A stretch of 39,441 nt of DNA. Source: Sulfurimonas sp. CG01_land_8_20_14_3_00_36_23 (GTDB lineage: Bacteria > Campylobacterota > Campylobacteria > Campylobacterales > Sulfurimonadaceae). Shown piece by piece: positions 2,028 to 30,078 of this stretch. Each line of letters begins with the position of its first letter. The stretch's first letter is position 1. The position numbers and the translations under genes are program-made. Below the pieces are notes generated by a model. That model was not told the origin of the DNA, did no database searches, and saw only the letters and a list, made by a program, of their open reading frames with translations. Location of the stretch: assembly GCA_002781365.1 (NCBI GenBank), contig PETN01000010.1, positions 77,556 through 116,996 of the forward strand. The letters run 5' to 3'.

Positions 2028-3312
2028 CAGTTAAAATAGTTCGACCAATCTCAGTTATCTTTACATCTCTAAATTGACCTAGAAGTTCTTCGGAGCCTTT
2101 AACTCTTATAACAATATTATTATCACTTCTTCCAGCGATGTAATTATCTCTGTTGAGCTCTTCAAAATAGACATTATAAACATTACCAAGGTAAGAGCTA
2201 TGTTTTTCATCTATGATTTCATTGTTAAGTGACTGAAGTTGTGTGAGTCTCTGCGAAGCCACATCTTCATCTACTATATTTGTAAAGTGTTCTGCTTCAG
2301 TCTCAGGACGAGGCGAATACTTAAAAGAAAAAATCTGGTCAAATTTTACTTTTCTTAAGACGTCAAGCGTATCTTCAAAATCTTCATCACTCTCACCTGG
2401 GAATGCGACAATAATATCTGTACTAATTGTTGCTTCTGGTGCGATACTCTTTAACTTTTCAACACGATTTAAGAACCACTCTTTTGTGTAGCCTCTTTTC
2501 ATATCTTTTAAAACTTTTGTTGAACCGCTTTGTAGTGGCATGTGCATTGATTTACAGATTTTAGGGTTAGAAGCGAACTCTTCTATAAACTCATCATCCA
2601 TATGAAATGGATGCGGGGAAGTGAAGCGAATTCTTTGTAGTTTCTCGATTTTACTTAATCTTCTTAGAAGTTCTGTAAAATTTACTTTTTCATGTTCTGC
2701 TGAAAATCTACGCCCATAATTGTTCACATTTTGACCCAAAAGAAATATCTCTTTCGCCCCTGAATCCACAAGACGACTTGCCTCTTTTAAAATTAAATCA
2801 AGTGGAATAGAGACTTCATCGCCTCTCGTTTTAGGAACGATACAAAATGTGCAGGATTTATCACAGCCAATAGAGATATTTATAAAACCCTTGTAAGGAG
2901 AGGAGCGAAAATCTTTAAAAGCAAATGCACTCTCATCATAATTTATATCTACCTCAACAGCCTTGTCTTTATAAAGCACTTGCGTAATTTTAGAAACATT
3001 TCGAGCACCAAGAACAAAGCTCACATAAGGAGCGCGCTTTAATATCTCTTCACCCAAATGTGAAGCGGTACATCCGCAGACACCTATTTTAGCACTCGGT
3101 TTTTTCTTTTTATTAAATCCACCAAGCTCTGAAAAGAGCTTATGAACTGGTTTTTCTCTTACAGAACAAGTATTTATTAAAATAAGGTCAGCTTTTGTAA
3201 AATCATCTATTACTTCATAATTTTCTTTCTCTGTTAGCTCCGCAATCATATGCTCACTATCACGAGAGTTCATAGCACAACCTAAGGTCTCAATAAATAA
3301 CTTTTGCTTCAT
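2011..3312 (-). CDS. miaB: tRNA-2-methylthio-N6-isopentenyladenosine synthase MiaB
   Basis: A radical-SAM methylthiotransferase of 433 residues that adds a methylthio group to i6A37 of tRNAs reading UNN codons. The N-terminal UPF0004 domain supplies cluster cysteines at residue 12 ([12 protein letters not shown]), 49 ([10 protein letters not shown]) and about 81 (GVCGCTASH). The radical-SAM cluster is [16 protein letters not shown] near residue 150, the order expected for the two [4Fe-4S] clusters. A C-terminal TRAM domain covers about residues 370-433. Motifs MPLQSGS and [12 protein letters not shown] are typical of MiaB rather than RimO or MtaB. It lies six bases downstream of the HP0268-like gene and overlaps the acyltransferase gene by 17 bases, so the block is one operon. 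Confidence 0.97.
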
Positions 3313-3318
3313 CTACGA

Positions 3319-3564
3319 TTATCTTAAAATGTGAACTTGGTACATATACTCATTATCTGCAAGACCATACTTTACTTCACTCATATAAAAACTTTTGCCT
3401 TTTGCTTCAAAATAGTCTTGAAGTTCTAACAAATCTTTATGTGAATTTTCTCTGTCAAAATAAAAAATTACACTATCTTCTTTCTCAACAGTAGCCTCAA
3501 TTTTAGCTAACTCAACTTTTTTTGGTTTTGAACTGATATCAGTTCTTGCGAATTTTAAATCCAT
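3319..3564 (-). CDS. HP0268-like small protein (putative nuclease)
   Basis: An 81-residue protein immediately upstream of miaB. Its size, its mix of beta and alpha character (VIFYFDRENSHKDLLELQDYFEAKGKSFYMSEVKYG) and its position next to miaB and a DUF374 gene suggest the Helicobacter HP0268 family, described as a small Smr-fold protein with nicking-nuclease and RNase activity. Assignment rests mainly on gene order and general resemblance; I cannot confirm active-site residues. The start is supported by GGAGAT nine bases before ATG and by a minus-strand -10 (TATAAT) at 3603-3608. It is divergent from nusA. Confidence 0.65.
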   Translation of the reverse strand: MDLKFARTDISSKPKKVELAKIEATVEKEDSVIFYFDRENSHKDLLELQDYFEAKGKSFYMSEVKYGLADNEYMYQVHILR

Positions 3565-3658
3565 ATTATCTCCGTTACTTTTTTATCTCTTAGAATTATT
3601 GCATTATATATAAACTCTACTAAAAAGTGCATTAAAGCTGATTTTAGTAGAATTTTGC

Positions 3659-3664
3659 TACAAT
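3659..3664 (+). promoter_or_regulatory. Probable nusA promoter -10
   Basis: TTTTGCTACAAT ends in a -10 hexamer (TACAAT) preceded by an extended -10 and AT-rich DNA, the usual housekeeping promoter form in Campylobacterota. It would start transcription near 3671, leaving a leader of about 70 bases before nusA. A minus-strand TATAAT at 3603-3608 would serve the divergent HP0268-miaB operon. Confidence 0.55.
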
Positions 3665-3739
3665 GTCGCCACATCATAAGAAATCCCCCAATTACAATTA
3701 TTTTATTTTTTATGAAACGACTCTCACGCAGGAATATTT

Positions 3740-4876
3740 ATGGAAAAAATTCTAGATATAGTTGACGCAATAGCACATGAAAAAGGGCTCAAGCCTGAAC
3801 AGATAAAACAAGCATTAAAAACAGCTTTTGTGCAAACAGCAAAACGAGTAATAAATAATAAATTTGCTTTTGAAGCTAATATAGACACAGATACGAAAAC
3901 TATGATTATTGTTCAAACAATTACAGTCGTCGCAGATGACAATGAGATACTTAAAGATGAAGAGAGAGCGCCTGCTTTTATATCTATCAGTGATGCGAGA
4001 GAGTATGATGATCAAGTAGAGCTTGAAGACCAACTGCAAATAGAACATAAACTAGAAGATTATGGTAGAACAGCGGCTGCTTCACTGCACAGAGAGATTG
4101 AATATCATATCCAGAGATTAGTTGAAGATGATATTTTCAATAAATATAAATCAAAAGTGGGAAGCTTAATCTCAGGTCGTGTAACAAGAGTGGATGATGC
4201 CAATACAACCTATGTTGAAGTAGATGAAATCCGTGCTATTTTACCAATGAAAAGCCGTATTAAAGGTGAATATTTTAAAGTTGGCGACCATATTAAAGCC
4301 GTTGTAAGACGTGTGAACATGGATAAAGAGCAAGGAATTCAAATTGAACTCTCTCGTACAAGTCCAAAATTTTTAGAAGAGCTTTTATCTCTAGAGGTAC
4401 CTGAGATTTCTGATGGAACGGTCATCATAGAAAGATCTGCTCGTATCCCTGGAGAGAGAGCAAAAATTGCCCTTGTGAGCATGCACCCTCAAGTAGATGC
4501 TGTTGGAGCAACTGTTGGAGTAAAAGGTGTTCGTATAAATGCAGTAAGCAAAGAGTTAATCGGAGAAAATATTGACTGTATTGAATACACATCTATTCCT
4601 GAACTTTTTGTCTCTCGAACTATGAGTCCAGCAATTATCTCTCATGTGGAGATTATTAAAAATGAAGCTGGCGAAAATGAGAAGGCTATTGTTACACTTC
4701 CAAGTGACCAAAAATCCAAAGCAATTGGTAAAAGCGGAATCAATATTCGCTTAGCTTCTATGCTTACTGGCTTCAACATTGAACTCGTTGAAAATGATAC
4801 TGCATCAAATCAAGAGAGTGGTCAAATCGAAGAATCAAAAGAGAGTGTGGACGCGCTCAAGGCACTCTTTAGTTAA
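3740..4876 (+). CDS. nusA: Transcription termination/antitermination factor NusA
   Basis: 378 residues. NusA binds RNA polymerase and nascent RNA and modulates pausing, intrinsic termination and antitermination. The N-terminal polymerase-binding domain (about 1-130) is followed by an S1 domain (about 138-205, GSLISGRVTRVDDANTTYVEV) and two KH domains (about 230-350, with GVRINAVSKELIGENIDCIEY and IGKSGINIRLASMLTG). The tail after residue 355 is short and acidic; the extra C-terminal AR repeats of enterobacterial NusA are absent, as is usual outside gammaproteobacteria. AGGA precedes the ATG by a few bases. The gene stands alone on the plus strand and ends 16 bases before a perfect 30-bp palindrome likely to terminate it. 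Confidence 0.97.
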   Translation: MEKILDIVDAIAHEKGLKPEQIKQALKTAFVQTAKRVINNKFAFEANIDTDTKTMIIVQTITVVADDNEILKDEERAPAFISISDAREYDDQVELEDQLQIEHKLEDYGRTAAASLHREIEYHIQRLVEDDIFNKYKSKVGSLISGRVTRVDDANTTYVEVDEIRAILPMKSRIKGEYFKVGDHIKAVVRRVNMDKEQGIQIELSRTSPKFLEELLSLEVPEISDGTVIIERSARIPGERAKIALVSMHPQVDAVGATVGVKGVRINAVSKELIGENIDCIEYTSIPELFVSRTMSPAIISHVEIIKNEAGENEKAIVTLPSDQKSKAIGKSGINIRLASMLTGFNIELVENDTASNQESGQIEESKESVDALKALFS

Positions 4877-4892
4877 GTATTTACCTCACCTC

Positions 4893-4922
4893 TTTGGCAT
4901 GTGGAAATTTCCACATGCCAAA
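4893..4922. terminator. Perfect 30-bp palindrome made of two 13-mer repeats; bidirectional terminator candidate
   Basis: Two copies of TGGCATGTGGAAA (4895-4907 plus, 4908-4920 minus) abut head to head with matching flanks, so the 30 bases 4893-4922 equal their own reverse complement. It sits between the converging ends of nusA (4876) and the ABC permease (4927), the right place for a terminator of both. The palindrome has no spacer, so an RNA hairpin would use some central bases as loop; there is no long T tract in either direction. Confidence 0.75.
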
Positions 4923-4926
4923 CCTT

Positions 4927-5886
4927 CTACTCTCTTTTCATATAGGGATTTAACTTCATCAATAGCAAATCTGCAAGCATATTTCCTAAAAGCGTTAAAA
5001 ATGCCGTTATCATTAACGTGCCCATAATCACTGGATAATCACGGCTAAGTGCACTCATAAAAAAGAGTTGTCCCATCCCTTCAATCCCAAAAATAGACTC
5101 TAAAATTACACTTCCTCCAATCAATCCTGGAAGAGACAAACCTAGAAGCGTAATGATAGGAGGGAGTAAATTTGGCAAGATATAGTATCGAAGTAACTTT
5201 TTTTTATCTAAGCCACGAGATAAAGCGAAATAGTAATAATCACTTTTTAAAATCTCTAAAGTCAAAGAGCGAATGTAAATAATCATACTTCCAAGTCCTA
5301 CAAATATCATCACAGATATAGGAAGAACGAGATGCCACGACATATCTAGATAGTTTGAGATACCTGTTTTTGTTTCTATCGAGTGAAGTCCTGCAATAGG
5401 AAAAAGCTCTAAATAGAGACTAAAAAAGAGAATAAAAAGAAGTGCCAAATAAAAAGATGGCATAGAAAAGGAGATGAGTGAGATTTGACGAATAAGATAA
5501 TCCACTTTTTTTCCATAAGAGAGTGCCGCTTTTATTCCAAGATATAAAGAGAGTCCAAACACAGCGATAAGAGCTGTAATATTCATCACTAAGGTCACAG
5601 GGAGTCTCGTTAAAATCTCAGTACCCACATCTTGCCCACTCACAAAAGAGACACCAAAGTTCAGTGTTAGTATGTTTACTATCCAATCAAGGTATTGCTC
5701 AAACAAAGATTTGTCTAGCCCATAGATAGCTTTAAGTTGTTCTATCGCCTCTTTGGTCATATTTGGATTTAATTCACCTGCTCCAAAGAAACTGTTTGGT
5801 GCGGAATGTATTGCTAAAAATGAGATGATTGAAATTAAGAAAATCATGAGAGATAAATATAAAAGTTTATTAAGTAGTTTTGGCAT
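4927..5886 (-). CDS. ABC transporter permease, DppB/OppB type
   Basis: A 319-residue inner-membrane permease of the peptide/nickel ABC family (binding-protein-dependent type I). It has an N-terminal membrane segment (residues about 7-28), a periplasmic region with the family pattern LNPNMTKEAIEQLKAIYGLDKSLFEQYLDWI, and five more segments. The EAA-like coupling loop is visible as SRGLDKKKLLRYYILPNLLPPIITLLG. No partner permease, ATPase or binding protein lies beside it, so it is an orphan here; partners must be elsewhere. Ligand cannot be told from sequence. Its ATG falls inside a copy of the 13-mer repeat, and no Shine-Dalgarno sequence is evident upstream. Confidence 0.9.
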   Translation of the reverse strand: MPKLLNKLLYLSLMIFLISIISFLAIHSAPNSFFGAGELNPNMTKEAIEQLKAIYGLDKSLFEQYLDWIVNILTLNFGVSFVSGQDVGTEILTRLPVTLVMNITALIAVFGLSLYLGIKAALSYGKKVDYLIRQISLISFSMPSFYLALLFILFFSLYLELFPIAGLHSIETKTGISNYLDMSWHLVLPISVMIFVGLGSMIIYIRSLTLEILKSDYYYFALSRGLDKKKLLRYYILPNLLPPIITLLGLSLPGLIGGSVILESIFGIEGMGQLFFMSALSRDYPVIMGTLMITAFLTLLGNMLADLLLMKLNPYMKRE

Positions 5887-5893
5887 GTGGAAA
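5881..5893 (+). repeat. 13-mer repeat TGGCATGTGGAAA over a start codon
   Basis: A perfect copy with the fuller flank TTTTGGCATGTGGAAAT. The ATG of the minus-strand permease (5886-5884) lies inside it, so the repeat occupies the spot where a ribosome binding site would normally be. Confidence 0.9.
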
Positions 5894-5910
5894 TTATAGC
5901 CTAAATGGGT

Positions 5911-5945
5911 AAAAAAAAGCTCTCCAAAAAGGGAAAAGGAGAGCT
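5911..5945 (-). terminator. Intrinsic terminator of the TorF-like porin gene
   Basis: Read on the minus strand, AGCTCTCC (5945-5938) pairs with GGAGAGCT (5925-5918) around a 12-base loop and is followed at once by a run of T residues (complement of the A run 5911-5918). It begins 18 bases after the porin stop codon. Confidence 0.88.
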
Positions 5946-5962
5946 GGATATAAAATAATTTT

Positions 5963-6622
5963 TTAGAACTCTGTACTGATTGAAGCTACAAAGTTATTTT
6001 GGTCAGAGTCTGCTGCATCTGCTTGGAATCCAGTATAAGCTACTGATAAAGAAAATTTACCGTATGATCTAGATAATCCTGCTGAGTAGAAAGAACCATA
6101 AGTATCATAAGCACCATACGTTGCATCGAAAGTTACTTCTGCAGGTAAAGGAGCAGAAACACTTACTTCCCACTCATCTGTTGCATCTAACTGATTTGTT
6201 TTCATACCTAAAGAGTATTTAGCACCAAGAGAAACAACTCCTAAGTCATACCCTAAACCAAGGTAAGCTTCTGCAAAATTATCTCCTTCAGCTTCATTTG
6301 GATACATATATTCAATTGCACCAATATCATAGCTAAAAGCACCCATTTCAGCTGAATAACCAACATAAATATCTGCTTCCATTGACGTTGTTGATGTTGC
6401 TCCAAAATCTACATTTGAGCCCCAAACACCAGCATAAAAACCTTTATACCCTAAATCAAAGCCACCTTGAATTGCTGGGCTATCATTAGTTTGAGTCATA
6501 CCTCTCCATACATAATTACTCACTGCTGCTACATTTGCACTGATTGACAAGTCTGATGATTCTTCTGCGTGTACTAAAGTTACAGCTAAAGCTGCCGCTA
6601 AACTAAGTTTTAATAATTTCAT
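5963..6622 (-). CDS. TorF-like putative outer-membrane porin
   Basis: 219 residues. A Sec signal peptide (MKLLKLSLAAALAVTLVHA) is followed by alternating amphipathic beta strands and a C-terminal phenylalanine (VASISTEF), the signature recognised by the outer-membrane assembly machinery. The stretch SNYVWRGMTQTNDSPAIQGG with YKGFYAGVWGSNVDFG matches the gcw_chp/TorF family of short beta-barrel proteins. The transported compound is unknown. Ribosome site AAGGAT precedes the ATG, and a strong intrinsic terminator follows. It is separated from fabI by 144 bases and is probably monocistronic. Confidence 0.85.
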   Translation of the reverse strand: MKLLKLSLAAALAVTLVHAEESSDLSISANVAAVSNYVWRGMTQTNDSPAIQGGFDLGYKGFYAGVWGSNVDFGATSTTSMEADIYVGYSAEMGAFSYDIGAIEYMYPNEAEGDNFAEAYLGLGYDLGVVSLGAKYSLGMKTNQLDATDEWEVSVSAPLPAEVTFDATYGAYDTYGSFYSAGLSRSYGKFSLSVAYTGFQADAADSDQNNFVASISTEF

Positions 6623-6734
6623 TTTCTATCCTTCTTATTTTGATAAGAGAAGTATTACATATCTCAGAGAAGAATAGAGCAGATAGTTGATTAATTTTTA
6701 GGCAGTTAATGGTCTTTTTTTATTTAGTGTAGAT

Positions 6735-6759
6735 TTAGAAGAGCTAGGGGCTCTTCTAA
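6735..6759 (-). terminator. Hairpin after fabI, probable terminator
   Basis: TTAGAAGAGC and GCTCTTCTAA form a perfect 10-bp stem around a five-base loop, starting eight bases after the fabI stop. The downstream minus-strand sequence is AT-rich but lacks a clean T run, so efficiency is uncertain. Confidence 0.6.
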
Positions 6760-6766
6760 AGAGGGG

Positions 6767-8321
<1,555 letters not shown>

Positions 8322-8325
8322 CAGA

Positions 8326-9525
8326 CTACTCTTCTGTAGCTATGAGGGGTAGCACACCTGGTAAAACTTTACCTTCTAAAAGTTCAAGAGAAGCACCACC
8401 ACCAGTAGATATAAATGTCATCTCATCATCAAGCCCTATTCTCTGAACTAAATCTGCGGTGTCTCCACCTCCGACCACAGTGGTTGCATAACTATCTGCA
8501 ACGAAATGCGCTATTTTACTTGAACCACGAGCAAATTTATCCATCTCATAGACGCCCATCGGTCCATTCCATAAAACTGTTTGCACATCACTAAGTACTT
8601 CTCTATAAAGTCTCACAGTTGCTGGTCCAATATCTAAGCCCATCCAACCTTTTGGTATCTCTTGTGCTGAAACGAGTTTACTAATCGAATCTGCCGCAAA
8701 TTTTTCTGCTGCAACAACATCAATAGGGAGGTAAAATTTAACACCTAGTTTTTTCGCTTCATCCATAATATGTTGTGCATCTGCGAGTAAATCATCTTCA
8801 ACTAAGGAAGCTCCAACGTCATAACCCATCTGTTTTAAAAATGTAAATGCCATTCCTCCACCGATAAGGACTTTGTCCACCTGTGGAAGTAAGTTTATAA
8901 GAGCTTCTAATTTACCTGACACTTTTGAGCCGCCTACAATCGCGGCAAAGGGACGAACAGGATTTTTGATTAATTTTCCAAAAAATAGCATCTCTTTTTG
9001 AAGCAGGAAACCTGCTGCCTTGTGTTTTTCATCAAAAAAGTGAGTAATACCTTCAACAGAAGAGTGCGCACGATGACTCACACCAAAAGCGTCATTAATA
9101 TAAAACTCAGCCATAGAAGCTAACTTTTGTGATAAGTTCTTATCATTTTCTGTTTCACCCGCTTCAAAACGAAGATTTTCCAGAAGTAAAATTTGAGTCG
9201 GTTGAAGTGCTTTTGCTTTAGAAATAGCATCTTCACCTACTACATCTTTTGCTAAGACAATCTCTCTTTTTAAAATTTGGTGCAATCTTCTTGCTACTGG
9301 AGCGAGTGAATACTTTGTATTCACTTTTCCATCTGGACGACCTAAATGAGAAGCTAAAATAATTGCACAATTTTGGTCTATACAGTAGTTAATCGTTGCT
9401 ACGGCTGAGCGAATACGACGGTCATCAGAAATATTTTCAAACTCATCCATCGGAATGTTAAAATCACATCTAATAAATACTTTTTTGTTCTCTAAATCTA
9501 AATTTTTAATATTTAATAATTCCAC
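8326..9525 (-). CDS. pgk: Phosphoglycerate kinase (GTG start)
   Basis: 399 residues. Pgk transfers phosphate between 1,3-bisphosphoglycerate and ADP, running toward gluconeogenesis in autotrophs. Seen: [13 protein letters not shown] and the basic-patch [10 protein letters not shown] at the N-terminus, GGSKVSGKL in the hinge and the nucleotide-binding [10 protein letters not shown] with [15 protein letters not shown] near the C-terminus. The start must be GTG at 9525: an in-frame TAG lies two codons upstream, and the next ATG (residue 27) would remove the essential N-terminus. AGGA lies at normal spacing. The GTG falls in a near copy of the 13-mer repeat. Eight bases separate it from gap. Confidence 0.97.
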
Positions 9526-9529
9526 ATGC
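9520..9529 (-). repeat. Near copy of the 13-mer repeat at the pgk start
   Basis: On the minus strand GCATGTGGAA matches ten consecutive bases of TGGCATGTGGAAA. The GTG inside it is the pgk start codon. Confidence 0.5.
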
Positions 9530-9533
9530 TATC

Positions 9534-10538
9534 CTATTTAGATATATGAAGTGCCATATCTACAAGTCTCATCGAATAGCCCCACTCATTGTCATACCAA
9601 GCCATTATTTTTATCATATCTCCACCTATAACCTGTGTTAAATCTTCAGCGACAATAGAGCTATATTCACACCCAACAAAATCTTGAGATACTCGCATCT
9701 CTTTATCTATAAGCATAATCCCTTTGAGTGAAGTTTCTGCCATTTTATTAAATACTGCTGTAACTTCTTCTTTAGTTGTTTGCTTTGAAACCACAACATT
9801 TAAATCTACCATAGAGACGTCAGGTGTAGGAACGCGAACACTTTGTCCGTGAAGTTTCCCTAAAAGTTGAGGCATAACAAGACTGATTGCCTTTGCTGCT
9901 CCCGTTGTTGTAGGTATCATATTGATAGCACCTGCTCTTGCACGGCGCTTATCTGAGGAGTGTTTAACATCTAAAATATTTTGATCATTTGTATAAGAGT
10001 GAATCGTTGTCATTAAGCCTTTCTCAATTCCAAAAGCATCATCTAGTACTTTTGCTACTGGACCTAAACAGTTTGTCGTACATGAAGCATTCGAGACAAT
10101 TTTTTGACCATCATAAAACCCCTCATTCACACCCATAACAAATGTTGGTGTCTCTTTATCTTTTGCAGGCGCAGAAAAAAGAACTTTTTCTATGCCATTG
10201 TCAAGATGAACCTGTGCCGATGCTTGTGTTAAAAAAACACCTGTGCACTCTAAGACCATATCTGCACCACAATCAGCAAACTTTAAATTTTTCGGGTCAC
10301 GATCAGAAAAAACTTTAACTTTTTTACCAGCAATACTGATAGTGTTCTCGTCAATCTGTTCAACTTCGCTTTTAAAAGTTCCATGCACAGAGTCATTTTT
10401 GAGTAAATAAACCATCATATCCATACTTGCCATGTCGTTAATTGCTACTAATTCAACATCCTCTCTCGTTGCTGCTATTCGCGCTACGCAGCGACCGATT
10501 CTGCCAAATCCATTAATTGCTATTTTAAGGCCCATCAT
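9534..10538 (-). CDS. gap: Glyceraldehyde-3-phosphate dehydrogenase, type I
   Basis: 334 residues. Gap interconverts glyceraldehyde-3-phosphate and 1,3-bisphosphoglycerate. The Rossmann motif INGFGRIGRCVAR and an Asp in VAINDMAS favour NAD(H) over NADP(H). The catalytic cysteine is in SNASCTTNCLGP and the histidine in TTIHSYTNDQ; NEWGYSMRLVDM ends the catalytic domain. AGGA lies four bases before the first of two ATGs and seven before the second, so either may be used. It heads the operon gap-pgk-tpiA-fabI and is divergent from nadD across 63 bases that must hold both promoters. Confidence 0.97.
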   Translation of the reverse strand: MMGLKIAINGFGRIGRCVARIAATREDVELVAINDMASMDMMVYLLKNDSVHGTFKSEVEQIDENTISIAGKKVKVFSDRDPKNLKFADCGADMVLECTGVFLTQASAQVHLDNGIEKVLFSAPAKDKETPTFVMGVNEGFYDGQKIVSNASCTTNCLGPVAKVLDDAFGIEKGLMTTIHSYTNDQNILDVKHSSDKRRARAGAINMIPTTTGAAKAISLVMPQLLGKLHGQSVRVPTPDVSMVDLNVVVSKQTTKEEVTAVFNKMAETSLKGIMLIDKEMRVSQDFVGCEYSSIVAEDLTQVIGGDMIKIMAWYDNEWGYSMRLVDMALHISK

Positions 10539-10584
10539 ATTTCCTATAATTTTAAAAATTGGCTTATATTACCCAAAGTTTGGT

Positions 10585-10590
10585 TATAAT
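10585..10590 (+). promoter_or_regulatory. nadD promoter -10; near-leaderless transcript predicted
   Basis: TTTGGTTATAAT supplies a consensus -10 (TATAAT). With the usual spacing of six to seven bases the transcript would begin around 10597, only about five bases before the nadD ATG at 10602, and no Shine-Dalgarno sequence fits between them. Confidence 0.6.
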
Positions 10591-10601
10591 TCGCTTTAAA
10601 T

Positions 10602-11144
10602 ATGGAAACTATTGCACTTTTTGGTGGTTCTTTTGACCCACCTCATATCGGTCATGAGGCTATTGTAAGGGCTGCTTTAAAATTGGAAGATGTTGACAAA
10701 GTTGTCATTATGCCAACTTTTTTAAACCCCTTTAAATCCAGTTCTCATGCTCCGTCTGAACTAAGACTCAAATGGCTCAAAGAAATTTTTGCCTCTTATG
10801 AAGATGTCTTTGTAGATGACTTCGAAGCGCAACAAAAAGAAAAAGTATCAAGCATTACAACTGTAAAGCACTTACTGAAAAAATATAAGAAAATATATTT
10901 AATTATAGGTGCTGACAATCTCGCTTTACTTAACAAGTGGGATAGATATGAGGAACTAGAAAAGCTAGTTACTTTTACTGTTGCCCATAGAGATAAAATC
11001 GAAATTCCAAAGAATTTCTTAGATTTATATGTGGATGTAAATATCTCATCTACTAAAATTCGAGAGAACTTGGATATATCAAAATTACCAAAAATAAATG
11101 CAAATGAAATCAGTCAATATTACAAGGAAAAGAATGCAAACTAG
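10602..11144 (+). CDS. nadD: Nicotinate-nucleotide adenylyltransferase
   Basis: 180 residues. NadD adenylates nicotinate mononucleotide to deamido-NAD, the penultimate step of NAD synthesis. The nucleotidyltransferase signature FGGSFDPPHIGH is at residues 7-18, with IIGADNLALLNKW in the middle and ISSTKIREN (the ISSTxIR motif) near the C-terminus. The start coincides with ATG at 10602, near the predicted transcription start, so it may be translated leaderless. It overlaps rsfS by 11 bases; nadD-rsfS pairing is widespread in bacteria. Confidence 0.95.
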   Translation: METIALFGGSFDPPHIGHEAIVRAALKLEDVDKVVIMPTFLNPFKSSSHAPSELRLKWLKEIFASYEDVFVDDFEAQQKEKVSSITTVKHLLKKYKKIYLIIGADNLALLNKWDRYEELEKLVTFTVAHRDKIEIPKNFLDLYVDVNISSTKIRENLDISKLPKINANEISQYYKEKNAN

Positions 11145-11469
11145 AATAGAAAAAATAACAAAAGTGCTAGACACCAACAAAGCTGAGGCTATAGAAGTAT
11201 TTGATTTACGTGATAAAAACTACTTTGTAGATTACGCTATTATCGCCTCATCTTTAGGAACAAGACATACTTTAGCACTTTTAGACCATCTGAAAAAAGA
11301 TTTAAAAGCAACAGAAAAGTTCAACCAAGTAGATGAAAGTGGAGATTGGATTGTTGTTGATTTAGGAGATGTCCTTATTCATATCATGACACCTGAATAC
11401 AGAGTCAAATATGACATGGAGAGCTTCTTAACAAAACTATCAAACGGTAAAGAAGGCGACGAACTTTAA
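11134..11469 (+). CDS. rsfS: Ribosomal silencing factor RsfS
   Basis: 111 residues from the chosen start. RsfS binds ribosomal protein L14 on the 50S subunit and blocks subunit joining under starvation. The family core is clear: IEVFDLRDKNYFVDYAIIASSLGTRHTLAL and DWIVVDLGDVLIHIMTPEYRVKYDME. A longer frame opens at 11098, but ATG at 11134 is preceded by AAGGAAAAG at good spacing and gives the normal family N-terminus (MQTRIEKITKVLD), so it is preferred. It overlaps the end of nadD and is followed after five bases by an inverted pair of the 13-mer repeat. Confidence 0.95.
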   Translation: MQTRIEKITKVLDTNKAEAIEVFDLRDKNYFVDYAIIASSLGTRHTLALLDHLKKDLKATEKFNQVDESGDWIVVDLGDVLIHIMTPEYRVKYDMESFLTKLSNGKEGDEL

Positions 11470-23206: not shown

Positions 23207-23235
23207 GGAGGATTTTTTCTTTAATTAAAATCCTC
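23207..23235. terminator. Bidirectional terminator between regulator and nosL-like genes
   Basis: GAGGATTTT (23208-23216) pairs with AAAATCCTC (23227-23235). The right arm overlaps the last codons of the convergent nosL-like gene. T-rich DNA in the loop and stem suits termination, but there is no separate long T tract. Confidence 0.5.
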
Positions 23236-23709
23236 TTGAGCTTTTTCTCTAGCTCCCTCAAAGTTCATAATTTCCCCGCCATTTTCAGCTTGAAATTTTT
23301 TCGCATCAGACTCTTTGAGAAAAGCATACTTGCTAACTCTACTCATGGTTGCACTTTTTTTACTGCCAACAACATAATAAGCTTCTTCAACATTAATCAA
23401 TTTTAAACTCGAAACATCTACCACTTTTAGACTTTTGAGATGAACTCCCTTGCCTAAGTGCTCTTCAAGACAATGAAGAGAACAGTATTGATGTTGCGTC
23501 CCTTTTTGCTGTGAAGCATGACTTGTTTTATAAAACTGAACCAGATTCATTCCACATCTTGAACAAGAATCTTTATCTTCTCCCTCTTGCACTAAAGTAG
23601 CCTCTTTAGCGCTTACTGTTTGAAACATTTGATGGGAATTATGCATCTCATGTTCTGCTGCATTTACCAATAAAAATATAGTAGCCAACGTACTTAAAAT
23701 TTTCAACAT
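23221..23709 (-). CDS. NosL family copper-binding protein
   Basis: 162 residues. A signal peptide (MLKILSTLATIFLLVNA) sends it to the periplasm. The NosL-type metal site appears as CSRCGMNLVQFYKTSH and YCSLHCLEEHL, with methionine and histidine nearby (HEMHNSHQM). NosL proteins deliver copper to nitrous-oxide reductase, and NosL-like paralogues occur apart from nos genes; no nosZ is in this window. It is not a lipoprotein by its signal, unlike many NosL. AAGGA lies eight bases before the ATG. It is divergent from a thioredoxin-like gene, which suggests shared handling of copper or thiols. Confidence 0.83.
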   Translation of the reverse strand: MLKILSTLATIFLLVNAAEHEMHNSHQMFQTVSAKEATLVQEGEDKDSCSRCGMNLVQFYKTSHASQQKGTQHQYCSLHCLEEHLGKGVHLKSLKVVDVSSLKLINVEEAYYVVGSKKSATMSRVSKYAFLKESDAKKFQAENGGEIMNFEGAREKAQEDFN

Positions 23710-23838: not shown

Positions 23839-24336
23839 ATGAAATCTAAAATAACAAACTATCTCAAAGAGATTGCCCTATTCTTTATTGTTATGGCAAT
23901 CTTTGCAAACCTAGTAAGTTTTTATAAGAGTAGCGATATAAACCAAGAGCCTTTAAAAAACATCACTTTTACGCTTATGAATGGCTCAATATACAATGTT
24001 CAAAAAGGTGAACCAATCTTAATTCATTTTTGGGCACCATGGTGTCCTATTTGTAAAATCGAGGCTTCAAACATAGATTTTATTTCACAAAAGTACAATG
24101 TTATTACAGTTGCAGTTCAAGCAAAAAATGAGGATGCAATCCATAACTTTTTGGCAGAACATGATGTAGAATTCAAAGTTTTCAATGACAAAGATGGATT
24201 CTTAGCAAGAGAGTTTAAGATAGCAGGCTATCCTACAACTTTAATCTATGATAGAGAGAAAAAGTTACTCTTTAGTGAGGTTGGCTATACAACTACTCTT
24301 GGCTTATGGGTAAGAATGTGGTGGGCTGGATTTTAA
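23839..24336 (+). CDS. Membrane-anchored thioredoxin-like disulfide oxidoreductase (TlpA/ScsD-like)
   Basis: 165 residues. One N-terminal membrane helix (about 11-29) anchors a periplasmic thioredoxin fold. The active site is WAPWCPICK (CxxC), with the cis-proline in AGYPTTLIY. The length and the closing VGYTTTLGLWVRMWWAGF match the protein-disulfide oxidoreductase group near ScsD, which reduces or isomerises disulfides in the periplasm. Divergent from the nosL-like gene; ScsD proteins are linked to copper tolerance, which fits that neighbour. Partner not visible. Confidence 0.88.
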   Translation: MKSKITNYLKEIALFFIVMAIFANLVSFYKSSDINQEPLKNITFTLMNGSIYNVQKGEPILIHFWAPWCPICKIEASNIDFISQKYNVITVAVQAKNEDAIHNFLAEHDVEFKVFNDKDGFLAREFKIAGYPTTLIYDREKKLLFSEVGYTTTLGLWVRMWWAGF

Positions 24337-24390: not shown

Positions 24391-27300
24391 CTATTTTGTA
24401 ATATTTACAGCATACGCTTTATCAGAGAGTGGTACCCAAGGACGTTTAATGTGTTGAGGACGGCGAAGCTTGTCATTCTCATTGAGAGGACGCGTTAAGT
24501 CATCTCTCCACCCTTGGTATATTTTGAAGTTATTCTCATAATTTACAAAAATATCACCTATTTTATCACCAGCCTGTGCCGCTTCTAAAATAACTTTTTG
24601 GTGCCAGCAGTGCATACCAGAGATTGGGTCTGGATGTGCAGCAGCTACTGCATTTTGCCATGAGCCACTGAGTCCATCCCACCAAATATTTCCACTATCT
24701 CTGTTGTAATCAGCAAATCTCTCTGTATGGAAAGGCTTAATCCCCTCAACATATTTGAGTTTACCCTCTTTTCCATCCATTTGAATTTCAGCTGTTGGAA
24801 CACCAAAACTGTTAATACCAGAAGTTCCAGAGTAATCTTCAATCTTGATTTGAGAACCTTCTTGACCAACATTTGCAGGAGAGTGTGCAATAAATTTAGG
24901 GTCATTCATATTTCTAACTACAGGTTGTGAGTCCACTTTACCATCTGTTACTCCATTTGGTACAGAGACAGAGTTTACAAGTTTCCAACGACCTCCATGG
25001 TGAGAACATGCTAGCGTACCAGGAAGAACTCCCTCTGTTGGAACAGCCATAGCAACAAAGTATCCTGAAGCTAAACCAGTAAGACTATCCACAATATTTA
25101 CACGAATAGCATCTCCACGCTTAAAGCCTTGACGCGCTGCATCGGGAGTTGATATCCAGATAGGGTCATGATTTTGTGAAATCTCCATAAGGTGCTTGCT
25201 ATTCGCAGAACGTGTATGAATATTATATGGCAAGCGGAAAACAGTATTGAGTGCATACGAATTTTTCTCTGTCATGAAAGAGTGATCTACATGAGAAACG
25301 ATATGCGCCATCTCTTTTTTCTCTTTAGCTGTTCTTGGATAAAATGGAATCGCATACTCTGGCCACTTCCAATCGTCTGCCAACCACTCACAAAAGAAGT
25401 CTAGTTTCTTATCTAAAGTTGCAAAACCTTCCATTTTCTTACCATCTATCTCGATACCGATAGATTTCTTTTTACCATGATGTTCAACAGACATAACACC
25501 TGTTCTTTTGTCTGTTGTAACCTCTTTCTTGTCATATTCATGACCATGAGAAATATAGTGCGTACCATTATCTTTAATCTCTTTTTCCTGAGCAGAATAG
25601 ATTTTATTCTCTTCCATCCATGCACCATGATCTCTCATATACTCATAAACTGGGAACTCTAAATTTTTATATCTTGCATCAGCTGTTGCTGTTGCCTTTA
25701 AGTTTGGTAAGTTGTCGCCAAAGGCAGCATCATACCACTCTGCGATAGTAACTGGAGTGCCTGGTGTTTTCTTAGATTCCCACATTTTTCTGATGCCAAG
25801 TTTACCAGTTGGATCGATGTAGTTTACACACATATCAAACCAGAACTCATTCTCTTCCCAAACTTCACCAAGACCTGCTTTTATATGTGCTTCAAGTGTA
25901 GCACGTGCAGGATTTTTAGGCTTCCATCCTGCTTTTTCTAAAGCAACTCTCATAACTGGCTGACGGAAAGAGGTCCATCTTGCTGGCATTGTTGCCTCAG
26001 AATGTTGATCATGTCTCTCCCCTGCCAAACCAACAGGTAAGATATAATCCACATACCAGTTTGTCTCAGACCAAGTTGGAGACAAGTTAAAAGTAAGTTC
26101 CATTTTGGACTCGTCTTTAATCGTCTCAATCCATCTAAAACCATCTGGATTAATCCAAACTGGGTTATACATACGAGGAATCCAAACAGCAAGTTTTGTA
26201 GGAACATTCAAGCCCTTCGCTTGCCATTTTTTCTGCCATGCAGTATCTGAAAGAAGATGAGGAAGTAAAAATGACATCTCATACGTAGAGAGAGGCCATT
26301 CAGGTGGCCAAGTGAGTTCATTGTAAACATCAACTTTAGGAATATTTGCACCACGCTTACCTTGACCAATCGTTGCACTACCACCTTTACCAGCGACAGA
26401 AATAACATGGAAATGGTGAAAAAATGTACCACCCTCAGGTCCAATAGCACCTCGAAGAGCAAGTGGTAGAAAACCAGTTCTTCCACTCATCCATCCACCT
26501 CGGTTACCAGCAGCAGTTGCTCTCCAAAAATAAGTTGAGACAGAAGTTCCAGCCCAGATAAACATGTCATACAGTTTTTCAAGTCTATCAGCAGGAACAT
26601 GAGTCTCTTTTGAAACATGTGCAAGTGTATATGGAGTATAAAGCTCTTTGATAGTATCTAAAAATGTATCAAAATCATTTTTAGTAGGGACTTTAGCAAT
26701 ATACCCCTTTTCTACCATATACTCTAAATATTTTTTATTATCTAAAAATACTTCCCAGTTCATCCATTTCTTTACAAAATCTCTATCTACTTTGCCTTCA
26801 TTTAAAATTCTTTGCGTTAAGTAAAGATAGATAAGAGGTTCTGTTCCAGGCCATGCTGCTATCCATAAATCAGCCATACCTGCAGAATTTGACATACGAG
26901 GATCCATAACCACAAGTTTTGCACCCTTCGCTCTCGCATCTGCAATAAACGAAGCTGATTGTTGAAAATAGTGACCAGCATCTGCAGCATGAGACGAGTT
27001 AAGGAATATTAACTTTGCATTCGCCCAATCTGGAGATGATCTATCATCATTTGCCCATTGAATCGTTGGTGTACGTCCACCTGATGAACATATATTAGTA
27101 TGTGAATTAAATGCATCCGTACCAAGAGTGTGCCATACTTTACCAGTAAAACCATTCTCATTTGGACGACCAACATGAAACATAATTGATTTTTTAGATA
27201 ACTCATCCCCTTTTTCAAGCGTATCTCCCATCTTTTTACCGATAGTAGTCATCGCTTCATTCCAAGTAGTACGAACCCATTTCCCCTCACCACGAGCAGA

Positions 27301-27783
27301 ACCAGGCGCACGCTTAAGTGGGAATGCTATTCTGTCTGGATCATACATTTGAGATTGTGTCGCATACCCTTTCGCACAGTTACGACCACGAGATGCTGGA
27401 TGAAGAGGATTCCCCATATATTTCTTCACTGTGAAACTTTTTTTATCAATCCAAGCGGTTAAACCACAAGAAGCCTCACAATTTGAACAGGCTGTAGGAA
27501 CAATCATATAATCATTCACTTCTATACCATCAGGGTTTGATTCACTTCTCACACCTTTACGGTCTATACCACCTCTTTTCCAATCATCACCATCTAACTC
27601 TTTAAAGTCAGCCCACTCTTCCATAGGAGGATAAAATGATAAGGAGTCTGGAGTATTTGTAAACTTGCTCTCTGCAACAGATTCTGCGAGAGCATCTGTT
27701 GTAAACACGCCTTTTGCAATAGCTGCCCCTGCAACACTAAAGGCAGCGCCTTTTAAAAATGTTCTTCTACTTTGTAAATACAT
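24391..27783 (-). CDS. Molybdopterin oxidoreductase catalytic subunit (DMSO reductase family), substrate unknown
   Basis: 1130 residues, unusually long for the family. A Tat signal (SRRTFLKG, residues 5-12) exports the folded enzyme. A [4Fe-4S] site follows: Cys99, Cys102, Cys106 and Cys136 (TACSNCEASCG then GRNCAKGY). Cys232 in SHTNICSSGGR is the likely molybdenum ligand, as in polysulfide, thiosulfate, tetrathionate and arsenate enzymes rather than serine-ligated DMSO/TMAO reductases. LIFLNSSHAADAG and KLVVMDPRMSNSA belong to the first cofactor domain; the C-terminal dinucleotide-binding domain is from about 930. A long lysine/glutamate-rich insert around 740-830 is unusual. It is the last gene after the ferredoxin and NrfD genes. 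The complex exchanges electrons with the quinone pool; direction and substrate cannot be decided here. Confidence 0.9.
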   Translation of the reverse strand: MYLQSRRTFLKGAAFSVAGAAIAKGVFTTDALAESVAESKFTNTPDSLSFYPPMEEWADFKELDGDDWKRGGIDRKGVRSESNPDGIEVNDYMIVPTACSNCEASCGLTAWIDKKSFTVKKYMGNPLHPASRGRNCAKGYATQSQMYDPDRIAFPLKRAPGSARGEGKWVRTTWNEAMTTIGKKMGDTLEKGDELSKKSIMFHVGRPNENGFTGKVWHTLGTDAFNSHTNICSSGGRTPTIQWANDDRSSPDWANAKLIFLNSSHAADAGHYFQQSASFIADARAKGAKLVVMDPRMSNSAGMADLWIAAWPGTEPLIYLYLTQRILNEGKVDRDFVKKWMNWEVFLDNKKYLEYMVEKGYIAKVPTKNDFDTFLDTIKELYTPYTLAHVSKETHVPADRLEKLYDMFIWAGTSVSTYFWRATAAGNRGGWMSGRTGFLPLALRGAIGPEGGTFFHHFHVISVAGKGGSATIGQGKRGANIPKVDVYNELTWPPEWPLSTYEMSFLLPHLLSDTAWQKKWQAKGLNVPTKLAVWIPRMYNPVWINPDGFRWIETIKDESKMELTFNLSPTWSETNWYVDYILPVGLAGERHDQHSEATMPARWTSFRQPVMRVALEKAGWKPKNPARATLEAHIKAGLGEVWEENEFWFDMCVNYIDPTGKLGIRKMWESKKTPGTPVTIAEWYDAAFGDNLPNLKATATADARYKNLEFPVYEYMRDHGAWMEENKIYSAQEKEIKDNGTHYISHGHEYDKKEVTTDKRTGVMSVEHHGKKKSIGIEIDGKKMEGFATLDKKLDFFCEWLADDWKWPEYAIPFYPRTAKEKKEMAHIVSHVDHSFMTEKNSYALNTVFRLPYNIHTRSANSKHLMEISQNHDPIWISTPDAARQGFKRGDAIRVNIVDSLTGLASGYFVAMAVPTEGVLPGTLACSHHGGRWKLVNSVSVPNGVTDGKVDSQPVVRNMNDPKFIAHSPANVGQEGSQIKIEDYSGTSGINSFGVPTAEIQMDGKEGKLKYVEGIKPFHTERFADYNRDSGNIWWDGLSGSWQNAVAAAHPDPISGMHCWHQKVILEAAQAGDKIGDIFVNYENNFKIYQGWRDDLTRPLNENDKLRRPQHIKRPWVPLSDKAYAVNITK

Positions 27784-27795
27784 TTATATTTCTCC

Positions 27796-28701
27796 TTAGC
27801 TCATTGGTAATAATTGTGGGATAATTAGCCAAACATGTTTAACCAACCACAGACCTGCTAGTGCAAAAATAGCAGCAAGTTTTAAAAGATTTTCACTTTG
27901 ACTCGTACGACTGAGTGCTATAAATAACATTGGCAAGAGGTATGCTATCCACTGACCTAACCAAAACATTACTGTATAAGGGCCATCCCCTTTTATATAT
28001 TCTAATACTGCAGCGACCTCTTCTGCTTTCATAGGCCCAAAAATATATTCAGACATATAAAGTAAAAAGGACATAAATGCACTTAAAGCTAAGATATTCG
28101 ATAAACTACTCTTCGCTTCATAATTGAGTTTCTTTCCACCCAAAAGAATCATAAACGCAGAACCAGCAAGAAGTGCAGCAAAAATCATCTGTGCAGACTC
28201 TGTTGGCATTTGCCACAGTTCACGTGCTGTTGCTTGAGACATAAGAGCAGCAGTGTAAAGCGTAACAGGAATAGCTAAAAGCACAGTCCAGAGCAATGTC
28301 TTATCAAACAGTACATTATCTTTTTTGAAAAAGCTAAGATATGCAAGTAAAAAGAGCAAGCCTACAAATAACGTAGCCATCCATGCACCGACAGTAATTG
28401 CTGATGTCCAGTTAGGATAGAAAAATATATGCCACATTCTAAATGGCTGATGTAAATCTGCCAAAGTAAAAAGTAAAAAGATATGAATAAAAATGATAGA
28501 GACAACTGTTGTCTGAAATCGTAAACTACCAACTTGTTCCGGATACTTTCTAATCAATAAAAAGAGCATAAAGATAACACCTGTACCAATACTTTTTGCC
28601 CACATATTTACAGTAACCAACCAAGGCCAAACAATGCCAGGTAAAGCTACATCTAAAGTCACTACAGCATTTGTAGCTGCTAATATCTCATGTGCCGCCA
28701 T
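27796..28701 (-). CDS. NrfD/PsrC-type quinone-interacting membrane subunit
   Basis: 301 residues with eight or so membrane helices, of the polysulfide-reductase NrfD family. Such subunits bind quinone or quinol and pass electrons to or from the iron-sulfur subunit without haem. Clear helices include VNMWAKSIGTGVIFMLFLLI and SAFMSFLLYMSEYIFG. The start overlaps the ferredoxin stop by one base (TAATG) and the gene ends 12 bases before the catalytic subunit, so all three are made together. Confidence 0.9.
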   Translation of the reverse strand: MAAHEILAATNAVVTLDVALPGIVWPWLVTVNMWAKSIGTGVIFMLFLLIRKYPEQVGSLRFQTTVVSIIFIHIFLLFTLADLHQPFRMWHIFFYPNWTSAITVGAWMATLFVGLLFLLAYLSFFKKDNVLFDKTLLWTVLLAIPVTLYTAALMSQATARELWQMPTESAQMIFAALLAGSAFMILLGGKKLNYEAKSSLSNILALSAFMSFLLYMSEYIFGPMKAEEVAAVLEYIKGDGPYTVMFWLGQWIAYLLPMLFIALSRTSQSENLLKLAAIFALAGLWLVKHVWLIIPQLLPMS

Positions 28702-29339
28702 TAGTGGTGTCCTCCTACAGGAAGTGTCGTAATTTTGTTAAATAAGGAATACCCATCAACTCTTTTTGAAGCAAGTGGGTTAAGGGTTGAATTACCAGCA
28801 TTGACATAGAAATGATGAGGATTTGTCCCTTTTTCAGGCTTGCGAACTTGTATGTTGCCTTGATTGACTTGAATATATTTTGAGATATTCGATGTTGCAT
28901 CGTCTAAATCACCAAAGATATTTGCTTGAACTGGACAGGCAACCACACATGCTGGCATCATACTTGAAGCTACACGGTGTGCACAGTAGGTACATTTGTC
29001 AGCTGTTTGCGTCTGAGGGTCGATATAGATTGCACCATAAGGGCAAGCCATAACACATCCTGCACAGCCTATACAGCGCTCTTTATCAATATTTACTATT
29101 CCATTTTCAAGATAATGTAGTGCAGAAACTGGACAGATTCTCTCGCACGGTGCATTCTCACAATGGTTACATCGTAGTGGCGTAAAAGTTCTTTTTGTAT
29201 CTGGAAATGTCCCCACATCTACATATTTTACCCGAAGTCTCCACGTGCTTAAAGGCACTTCATTCTCCACTTTACATGCTATTTCACACCCTTTACATCC
29301 CATGCAAAGATGCAAATCAACTAGGAAACCTAATTGCAT
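28701..29339 (-). CDS. Four-cluster [4Fe-4S] ferredoxin subunit (PsrB/DmsB type)
   Basis: 212 residues from the chosen start. Four cysteine groups are visible: CMGCKGCEIAC, CNHCENAPCERIC, CIGCAGCVMAC and CTYC with PACVVAC, the DmsB/PsrB arrangement of sixteen ligands for four cubanes. It wires the molybdenum subunit to the NrfD subunit. No signal peptide: such subunits are exported with their Tat-tagged partner. A frame opens at 29369, but ATG at 29339 has GGAG at ideal spacing and gives the standard QLGFLVDLHLCMGC start. The C-terminus ends in GGHH. Confidence 0.92.
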   Translation of the reverse strand: MQLGFLVDLHLCMGCKGCEIACKVENEVPLSTWRLRVKYVDVGTFPDTKRTFTPLRCNHCENAPCERICPVSALHYLENGIVNIDKERCIGCAGCVMACPYGAIYIDPQTQTADKCTYCAHRVASSMMPACVVACPVQANIFGDLDDATSNISKYIQVNQGNIQVRKPEKGTNPHHFYVNAGNSTLNPLASKRVDGYSLFNKITTLPVGGHH

Positions 29340-29554
29340 ATATTCTCCTTTGGCCCCTATTTCGGGCAAATTTAAAGTTTATTTTTAATGCTAAATATAC
29401 TCTAAAAGAAGCTTTTCTTATAAAAAACAGCTTCCTTCAATCTTTAAATAGTATCAAAGTAATCTTAAAATATTTGTAAAAAAGTGATAAGTTTTTGATA
29501 ACTTTAGAGAGTTGGGTAAATATGAGATTTTAAATTATAAATATAAGGAAGGAA
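29340..29554. other. Intergenic region upstream of the molybdenum-enzyme operon
   Basis: About 215 AT-rich bases with no credible gene. On the minus strand TATATT in AGTATATTTAGC (about 29390-29395) is a possible -10 for the ferredoxin-NrfD-catalytic operon. A short inverted repeat GAAGC/GCTTC (29408-29436) may be an operator or chance. Confidence 0.4.
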
Positions 29555-29598: not shown

Positions 29599-30078
29599 TT
29601 ACTCTTTCTCTTCTAAAAACTCAGAAGGGTCTTCTAAACAATCTAATCCATCCGAGTGATTTTTAACATTTGTTCCATAAGTATAGGTAAGTTCACCACC
29701 CATTTTACCTTGATACATTACACCACCAGAGATAATCGCGACTATTACAATTGCAAAAATCTCTGCTTTTAAAACTTTTTTAAAACAGCCAAAGAACTTA
29801 AAGAGAGTCGCTATAACCATAGCTATAAGCAGATACAAGCCAAATGCTTTATGCTCTTTTAGTAACTCTTGGCCTTCAGTAGGAAGAAGGATGTAGGCTT
29901 CCCCTCCATCACTTTTACCCGTAAAAAAGGCAAACACTAAAAAGAGCGTAGCAAAAACCATAAAACGTGTTGAAATTTTTGACATAAGTTCACTTGGCTT
30001 AATTAAATAAGCCACGCCAAGGACAAAAGAGAGGATTGGAAGAGAGACTGCGAAATGAGATACTACTGGATGTAACAT
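29599..30078 (-). CDS. DUF2231 family membrane protein
   Basis: 159 residues with four membrane helices. Family marks are the start LHPVVSHFAVSLPI, HKAFGLYLLI in the middle and GGVMYQGKMGGELTYTYGTNV near the C-terminus, where the histidines may bind haem; function is not established. The acidic tail (CLEDPSEFLEEKE) is cytoplasmic or periplasmic. It lies alone between two terminators, 8 bases past that of hisD. Confidence 0.83.
   Translation of the reverse strand: MLHPVVSHFAVSLPILSFVLGVAYLIKPSELMSKISTRFMVFATLFLVFAFFTGKSDGGEAYILLPTEGQELLKEHKAFGLYLLIAMVIATLFKFFGCFKKVLKAEIFAIVIVAIISGGVMYQGKMGGELTYTYGTNVKNHSDGLDCLEDPSEFLEEKE

Follow-up and report, generated by a model that had tools for sequence, protein, structure and literature searches.

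Which substrate does the three-subunit molybdenum enzyme encoded in Sulfurimonas sp. CG01_land_8_20_14_3_00_36_23 handle, and in which direction does it work? Its genes lie at positions 24,391–29,339 of a 39,441-nucleotide stretch of contig PETN01000010.1 (hereafter the window, to which the coordinates of the operon refer), where an earlier note made from the sequence alone had described a molybdenum complex with an unusually large catalytic subunit, possibly an undescribed sulfur- or metalloid-respiring branch. Our comparisons support an uncharacterised branch within the CISM group (complex iron-sulfur molybdoenzymes), and the most probable function we can propose, somewhat short of an even chance, is that of a molybdenum-containing sulfite dehydrogenase located in the periplasm and passing electrons to quinone in the manner of SoeABC. 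The operon has the gene order B-C-A on the minus strand:

24391–27783, minus strand: catalytic molybdopterin subunit A (open reading frame of 1130 aa with ATG start; Pfam)
27796–28701, minus strand: subunit C, NrfD-type membrane anchor (open reading frame of 301 aa; Pfam NrfD)
28701–29339, minus strand: subunit B, four-cluster ferredoxin (212 aa from the ATG at 29339; Pfam Fer4_11)

Open reading frames and Pfam domains agree with the coordinates and the three subunits of the earlier note; for subunit B a TTG start at 29369 is also possible (28701–29369, 222 aa). Subunit A carries the expected Tat motif (SRRTFLK), RRxFL being kept in every sampled homologue of its family, together with the Pfam domains Molybdop_Fe4S4 (residues 94–147) and Molybdopterin, a sub-threshold dinucleotide-binding domain (850–951) and the [4Fe-4S] cysteines C99, C102, C106, and C136. 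The ferredoxin and NrfD partners were also correctly recognised, since subunit B has four 4-Cys motifs (seen by eye in its sequence) besides its Fer4_11 domain, and subunit C, with its NrfD domain, is predicted from its family to bind quinone. The best NCBIfam matches of B and C are TtrB and TtrC. The complex thus combines in one operon the MopB subunit with a [4Fe-4S] motif, the four-cluster ferredoxin and the NrfD protein by which a CISM is defined.

Full-length orthologues of subunit A (~57–91% identity, the window family) were found in 107 of the 299 Campylobacterales genomes sampled, representing 28 of 81 genera, so the operon is more than a chance arrangement. All the sampled full-length copies are ~1080–1150 aa long, Tat-tagged and provided with the same active-site cysteine. 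Outside this order, tblastn against plasmids retrieved full-length homologues at 34–38% in Thermomicrobium roseum, Rhodococcus jostii RHA1 (WP_011600499.1, on pRHL3) and haloarchaea, and a mixed profile run against genome contigs gave at least 580 relatives, the best 80 of which come from Actinomycetota, Chloroflexota, Bacteroidota, Calditrichota, Planctomycetota, Acidobacteriota, and others. The cross-phylum sister clade to which the R. jostii protein belongs, with haloarchaea also among its hosts, shares 36–41% identity with the window family over the full length, and both join at 100% support in the tree.

We built two quick trees with several long branches, the second of which is N-terminal and includes ArrA and PSR fragments from the PDB, using references that include PsrA/PhsA, TtrA, DmsA, NapA, and FdnG, SoeA not being among them. 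The earlier note had proposed such a tree and named placement inside a characterised clade as the outcome that would contradict it; subunit A falls inside none of the PsrA/PhsA, TtrA, DmsA, NapA, or FdnG clades. Moving outward from the joint clade, the branches are an Azoarcus protein together with a paralog from the same genus as the host (L178), then TtrA as its own well-separated clade, and then PSR/PhsA. PSR, PhsA, and Psr804 are separate from the window family in both trees. In the N-terminal tree PSR groups with PhsA, ArrA and TtrA fall near the window group, and the window family is nested inside the cross-phylum clade (86), so that either group may be derived from the other.

Subunit A scores far below the cut-off of every NCBIfam equivalog. 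The best one is PhsA (125.8 bits vs. 694), the others being DMSO reductase type II (TIGR03479, 110.9 vs. 984.75), ArrA (59.5 vs. 1600), and TtrA (46.9 vs. 1750, a value that the Campylobacterota TtrA references, at 954–963 bits, also miss). The best PDB sequence match is Thermus PSR; SoeA is not among the NCBIfam or PDB matches, nor is there a Soe-like named record among the plasmids. By the sequence tests run, the subunit is not PsrA/PhsA, TtrA, ArrA, or a type II enzyme, and no published characterisation of the window family was found in the literature searched. Two groups were discarded on specific grounds. The type II enzymes (NarG, PcrA, EbdA) are excluded by Cys232, instead of Asp, at the ligand column and by the score below the TIGR03479 cut-off. 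In formate dehydrogenases a His is expected right after the Cys/Sec ligand; here Ser follows C232, and the FdnG/NapA/Nas group is far off in the tree.

The active-site Cys232 singled out in the earlier note aligns with the Mo-ligand Cys of ArrA and Thermus PSR, and is the likely Mo ligand here. The alignment also gives H203, R206, H228, R237, and R248 as conserved pocket residues, with R206, H228, C232, and R237 invariant in the window family and in the sister rows. On these four columns ArrA has R165, H189, C193, and K198, which we take from ArrA structure work to be its arsenate-binding residues, so that R, H, and C are kept and K becomes R in the window family. TtrA has T-H-C-R (Thr in the R206 column, the other three shared), PhsA S-H-C-S, and Thermus PSR G-P-C-E, with only the Cys in common. 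As far as an alignment can tell, the R-H-C-R pattern fits an oxyanion pocket and not that of a polysulfide reductase.

The size of subunit A is indeed ~370 aa above that of PsrA/PhsA, but its 1130 aa are ordinary for its own family (1082–1151 aa); the sister-clade catalytic subunits have 900–1080 aa. The parts missing from the sister clade are the N-terminus (~1–48) and residues 940–991, both predicted as disordered, with smaller ones near 345–366 and 617–632. The charged insert at ~740–830 turned out not to be peculiar, being predicted as well folded (10-residue block means of ~82–94 in an AlphaFold model with mean pLDDT 80 and pTM 0.84) and having equivalents in the sister proteins. In both Foldseek and VIA-align, the structural matches of this model are led by CISM folds from the PDB. 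ArrA 6cz7 is the best Foldseek match (E 1e-33), and in VIA-align the model ties with formate dehydrogenase, PSR, and ArrA (Z 29.7–30.9; PSR 2vpw 30.5), so the fold alone does not choose among them.

A substrate is suggested by the surroundings of the sister clade. Its proteins have no Tat signal and would therefore act in the cytoplasm, and B and C are fused: in 66 of 72 testable loci the gene immediately upstream of A encodes a ferredoxin-NrfD protein. Over 86 loci (L057–L061, L063–L143) the neighbours include rhodanese-fused MBL persulfide-dioxygenase-like proteins (33), SulP (18), DsrE2 (14, all on the same strand within 4 kb), TusA (7), and TauE (7), mostly ≤4 kb away, and any sulfur gene appears in 35 of the 58 loci sized at least 11 kb. 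Persulfide dioxygenase produces sulfite and SulP proteins transport sulfate, so an enzyme between them would most simply oxidise sulfite. Oxidation would also be a sensible direction given that many of the hosts are aerobic (Actinomycetota, Bacteroidota, haloarchaea). The idea of an undescribed branch respiring sulfur or metalloids can thus be kept as to the uncharacterised CISM branch, with sulfur the likelier element because of these neighbours, but respiration, in the sense of reduction, is unproven, and the gene surroundings of the relatives speak for oxidation.

If the complex is a sulfite dehydrogenase, A and B would be folded and exported together by Tat, as suggested by the Tat motif of A and by the TorD genes linked to it in relatives. 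Sulfite would bind the Mo-bisPGD, whose ligand would be C232, with R206, H228, and R237 stabilising it there, and would leave as sulfate. The two electrons so released could, by analogy with the family, be relayed by the [4Fe-4S] cluster of A and then by the four of B until they reach quinone at a site in the NrfD subunit C. The quinol would feed a respiratory chain ending in a haem-copper oxidase, and the sulfite would come from sulfide oxidised by SQR, the product being then oxidised further or exported. The host genome, with an estimated completeness of 100%, contains two SQR-like proteins, a haem-copper oxidase, and [NiFe] hydrogenases; no SoxY, no SorA/SoxC-type protein and, apart from subunit A, no PsrA- or NapA-like gene was found in it, so that neither Sox nor SorA is available for this oxidation. 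In support of the proposal, 19 of 81 family-positive genomes with a completeness of at least 95% likewise have neither SoxY nor PF00174.

Several observations weigh against this proposal, the direction of the reaction being its weakest step. The hydrogenases of the host also permit a reductase role, and none of the sulfur genes of the tested kinds (same representatives as in the sister scan) is found beside 20 Campylobacterales loci. Among the same 81 family-positive genomes, a PF00174 protein (SorA, SoxC, or MsrP) is present in 43 and missing in 38. The sister clade is itself uncharacterised as far as we found, its function is unproven, and it differs by its 36–41% identity and its compartment. 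Furthermore, SoeA is reported to be cytoplasmic (PMC8076601), whereas the window subunit is Tat-exported, a comparison made by description and not by sequence. A simple replacement of SorA was considered and discarded because SoxY and PF00174 are mixed in the same 81 genomes (both in 41, SoxY only in 19, neither in 19, PF00174 only in 2).

The main rival, which we regard as unlikely, is a quinol-dependent polysulfide or sulfur reductase, in which hydrogenase would supply electrons that menaquinol, NrfD, and B hand on to A, turning periplasmic polysulfide into sulfide, as in Wolinella PsrABC. The three-subunit layout and periplasmic placement match that system, Thermus PSR and PhsA are the top PDB and NCBIfam matches, and the host has hydrogenases and no other PsrA-like gene (five PF00384 proteins, none PsrA- or NapA-type apart from the window subunit). 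In papers the psr genes of Sulfurovum-type genomes are called polysulfide reductase (PMC4288042, PMC10045233), so the window family may be among the genes bearing that name. This is countered by the position outside the PSR/PhsA clade in both trees, by an ArrA-like pocket in place of that of PSR, by the separate occurrence of genuine Psr-type operons in this genus (L171, L176), and by the oxidative contexts of the sister clade.

It is rather improbable that the complex is a quinone-linked oxidoreductase of some other sulfur compound (for example thiosulfate/tetrathionate or sulfane sulfur), whichever way the reaction runs. The B-C-A order and subunit B, whose top NCBIfam match is TtrB, resemble TtrBCA, H228, C232, and R237 are common to TtrA, and the group adjoins TtrA in the trees; against it, the TtrA score is far under its cut-off, the TtrA clade stands well apart and R206 is replaced by Thr. 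An oxidoreductase of arsenic or another metalloid, related to ArrA/ArxA, seems very improbable. It would account for the top Foldseek match and the R-H-C-K/R pattern, and arsB and Arx-like regulators are found close to the gene of a deeper relative in Azoarcus KH32C, but no ars genes were recognised near the window locus, VIA-align does not separate ArrA from PSR and formate dehydrogenase, the ArrA model scores far too low, the sister neighbours are sulfur genes, and the family is too widespread and core-like in sulfur-oxidising genera. A search for ArrA in Campylobacterota gave no match, but neither did its control, so this carries no weight as to absence.

Turning again to sulfite oxidation, a broader idea, possible although doubtful, is that the Campylobacterales complex and its cytoplasmic sister make up one overlooked quinone-linked sulfite dehydrogenase lineage separate from SoeA, SorA, and AprAB-Sat. 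In many aerobic heterotrophs of other phyla the cytoplasmic enzyme would then complete the pathway that begins with persulfide dioxygenase (PDO), and Campylobacterales would have converted it into an exported one. The large sister clade beside PDO, DsrE2, TusA, and SulP is a direct testable candidate for sulfite disposal by heterotrophs that form sulfite with PDO, and in Campylobacterota without Sox and SorAB the complex would supply the missing oxidation step. It would also be a caution that not every NrfD-linked molybdoenzyme of vent bacteria is a polysulfide reductase. In a survey of Bohai Sea sediments PDO was common, SorA and SUOX scarce, and SoeABC undetected (PMC12345210).

Around the operon, 19 divergent wide loci contain subunit B in 17, C in 18, A in 19, a TorD chaperone in 15, a 365-aa ferredoxin in 14, and two small proteins of no known function in 11 and 13, with B, C, and A adjoining in at least 17. 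The subclade of the window has no TorD at the locus; a TlpA-like thioredoxin takes its place in 12 of the 12 closest relatives, often with a NosL-type protein. In the window these two are associated with the operon by position only:

23839–24336, plus strand: TlpA/ResA-like membrane thioredoxin, 165 aa, convergent with A
23221–23709, minus strand: NosL-domain lipoprotein-like protein, also a neighbour of the operon in many of the nearest relatives

A DUF2231 membrane protein (29599–30078) is encoded upstream of B, in the same place as in locus L182. The catalytic gene on a Sulfurovum mangrovi plasmid (L056:9001–12169) is broken into two frames and carries no annotation, an example of how readily annotation can overlook the enzyme. 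The Azoarcus KH32C homologue (L062:6878–9517) has Asp at the expected third cluster cysteine (CHVCNIQD). Another contig of the host (L183, C47:15000–31000) carries at 2821–11443, minus strand, an operon for a rhodanese-like protein, a Tat-exported type II (NarG-like) molybdoenzyme, a NarH-like subunit, two proteins with N-terminal signals, TorD, and a 4Fe-4S ferredoxin like that of the B-C-A-TorD-ferredoxin operons, resembling the Thiovulum rhodanese-narGH operon (PMC9938260).

Members of the window family may have been named polysulfide or tetrathionate reductases in earlier genome papers (PMC4288042, PMC9938260, PMC4674564). The active-site Cys lies at 248–267 in its Sulfurovum-type members; positions 171, 247, 183, and 195 are given for PsrA of S. 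indicum and Cys257 for that of NBC37-1 (PMC10045233). These positions do not by themselves tie the window family to a particular PsrA of S. indicum, but the NBC37-1 protein may belong to the window family, its Cys falling within the range of 248–267. The three-gene nrfD-narB-ttrB operon of Thiovulum (PMC9938260) may be another case. In the same genus as the host, a B-A pair without NrfD (L178:2466–5608, 197 and 853 aa) has the same R-H-C-R pocket and Cys247, and by its two genes and Cys position may be the psrA2B2 of the Sulfurimonas/Sulfurovum literature.

Among known systems, SoeABC of Allochromatium and Aquifex shares with the window complex the three-subunit molybdoenzyme plan, the 4x[4Fe-4S] subunit, the NrfD anchor, the proposed reaction, and, through the sister clade, a sulfur context. 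However, the reported carriers of SoeC belong for the most part to Proteobacteria and Aquificae (PMC8076601), phyla outside which most of the sister clade is found; as the compartment differs and SoeA was compared by description only, the complex cannot be filed under SoeABC. PsrABC/PhsABC have the same layout, Tat export, Cys ligand, and overall fold, with a catalytic subunit ~370 aa smaller, a different clade and unshared pocket residues. TtrABC agrees in the B-C-A order, in the best matches of B and C and in H228/C232/R237, but forms a separate clade, lacks R206, and has a model cut-off that subunit A falls far below. ArrA/ArxA, the top Foldseek match with the R165/H189/C193/K198 pattern, differs by an identity of only 17–20%, a score under the ArrA cut-off, and the lack of ars genes nearby. 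The sister clade differs in having no Tat signal, a fused B-C, a shorter catalytic subunit, and a location beside sulfur-oxidation genes, and resembles the window complex in its full-length identity of 36–41% and the same invariant pocket.

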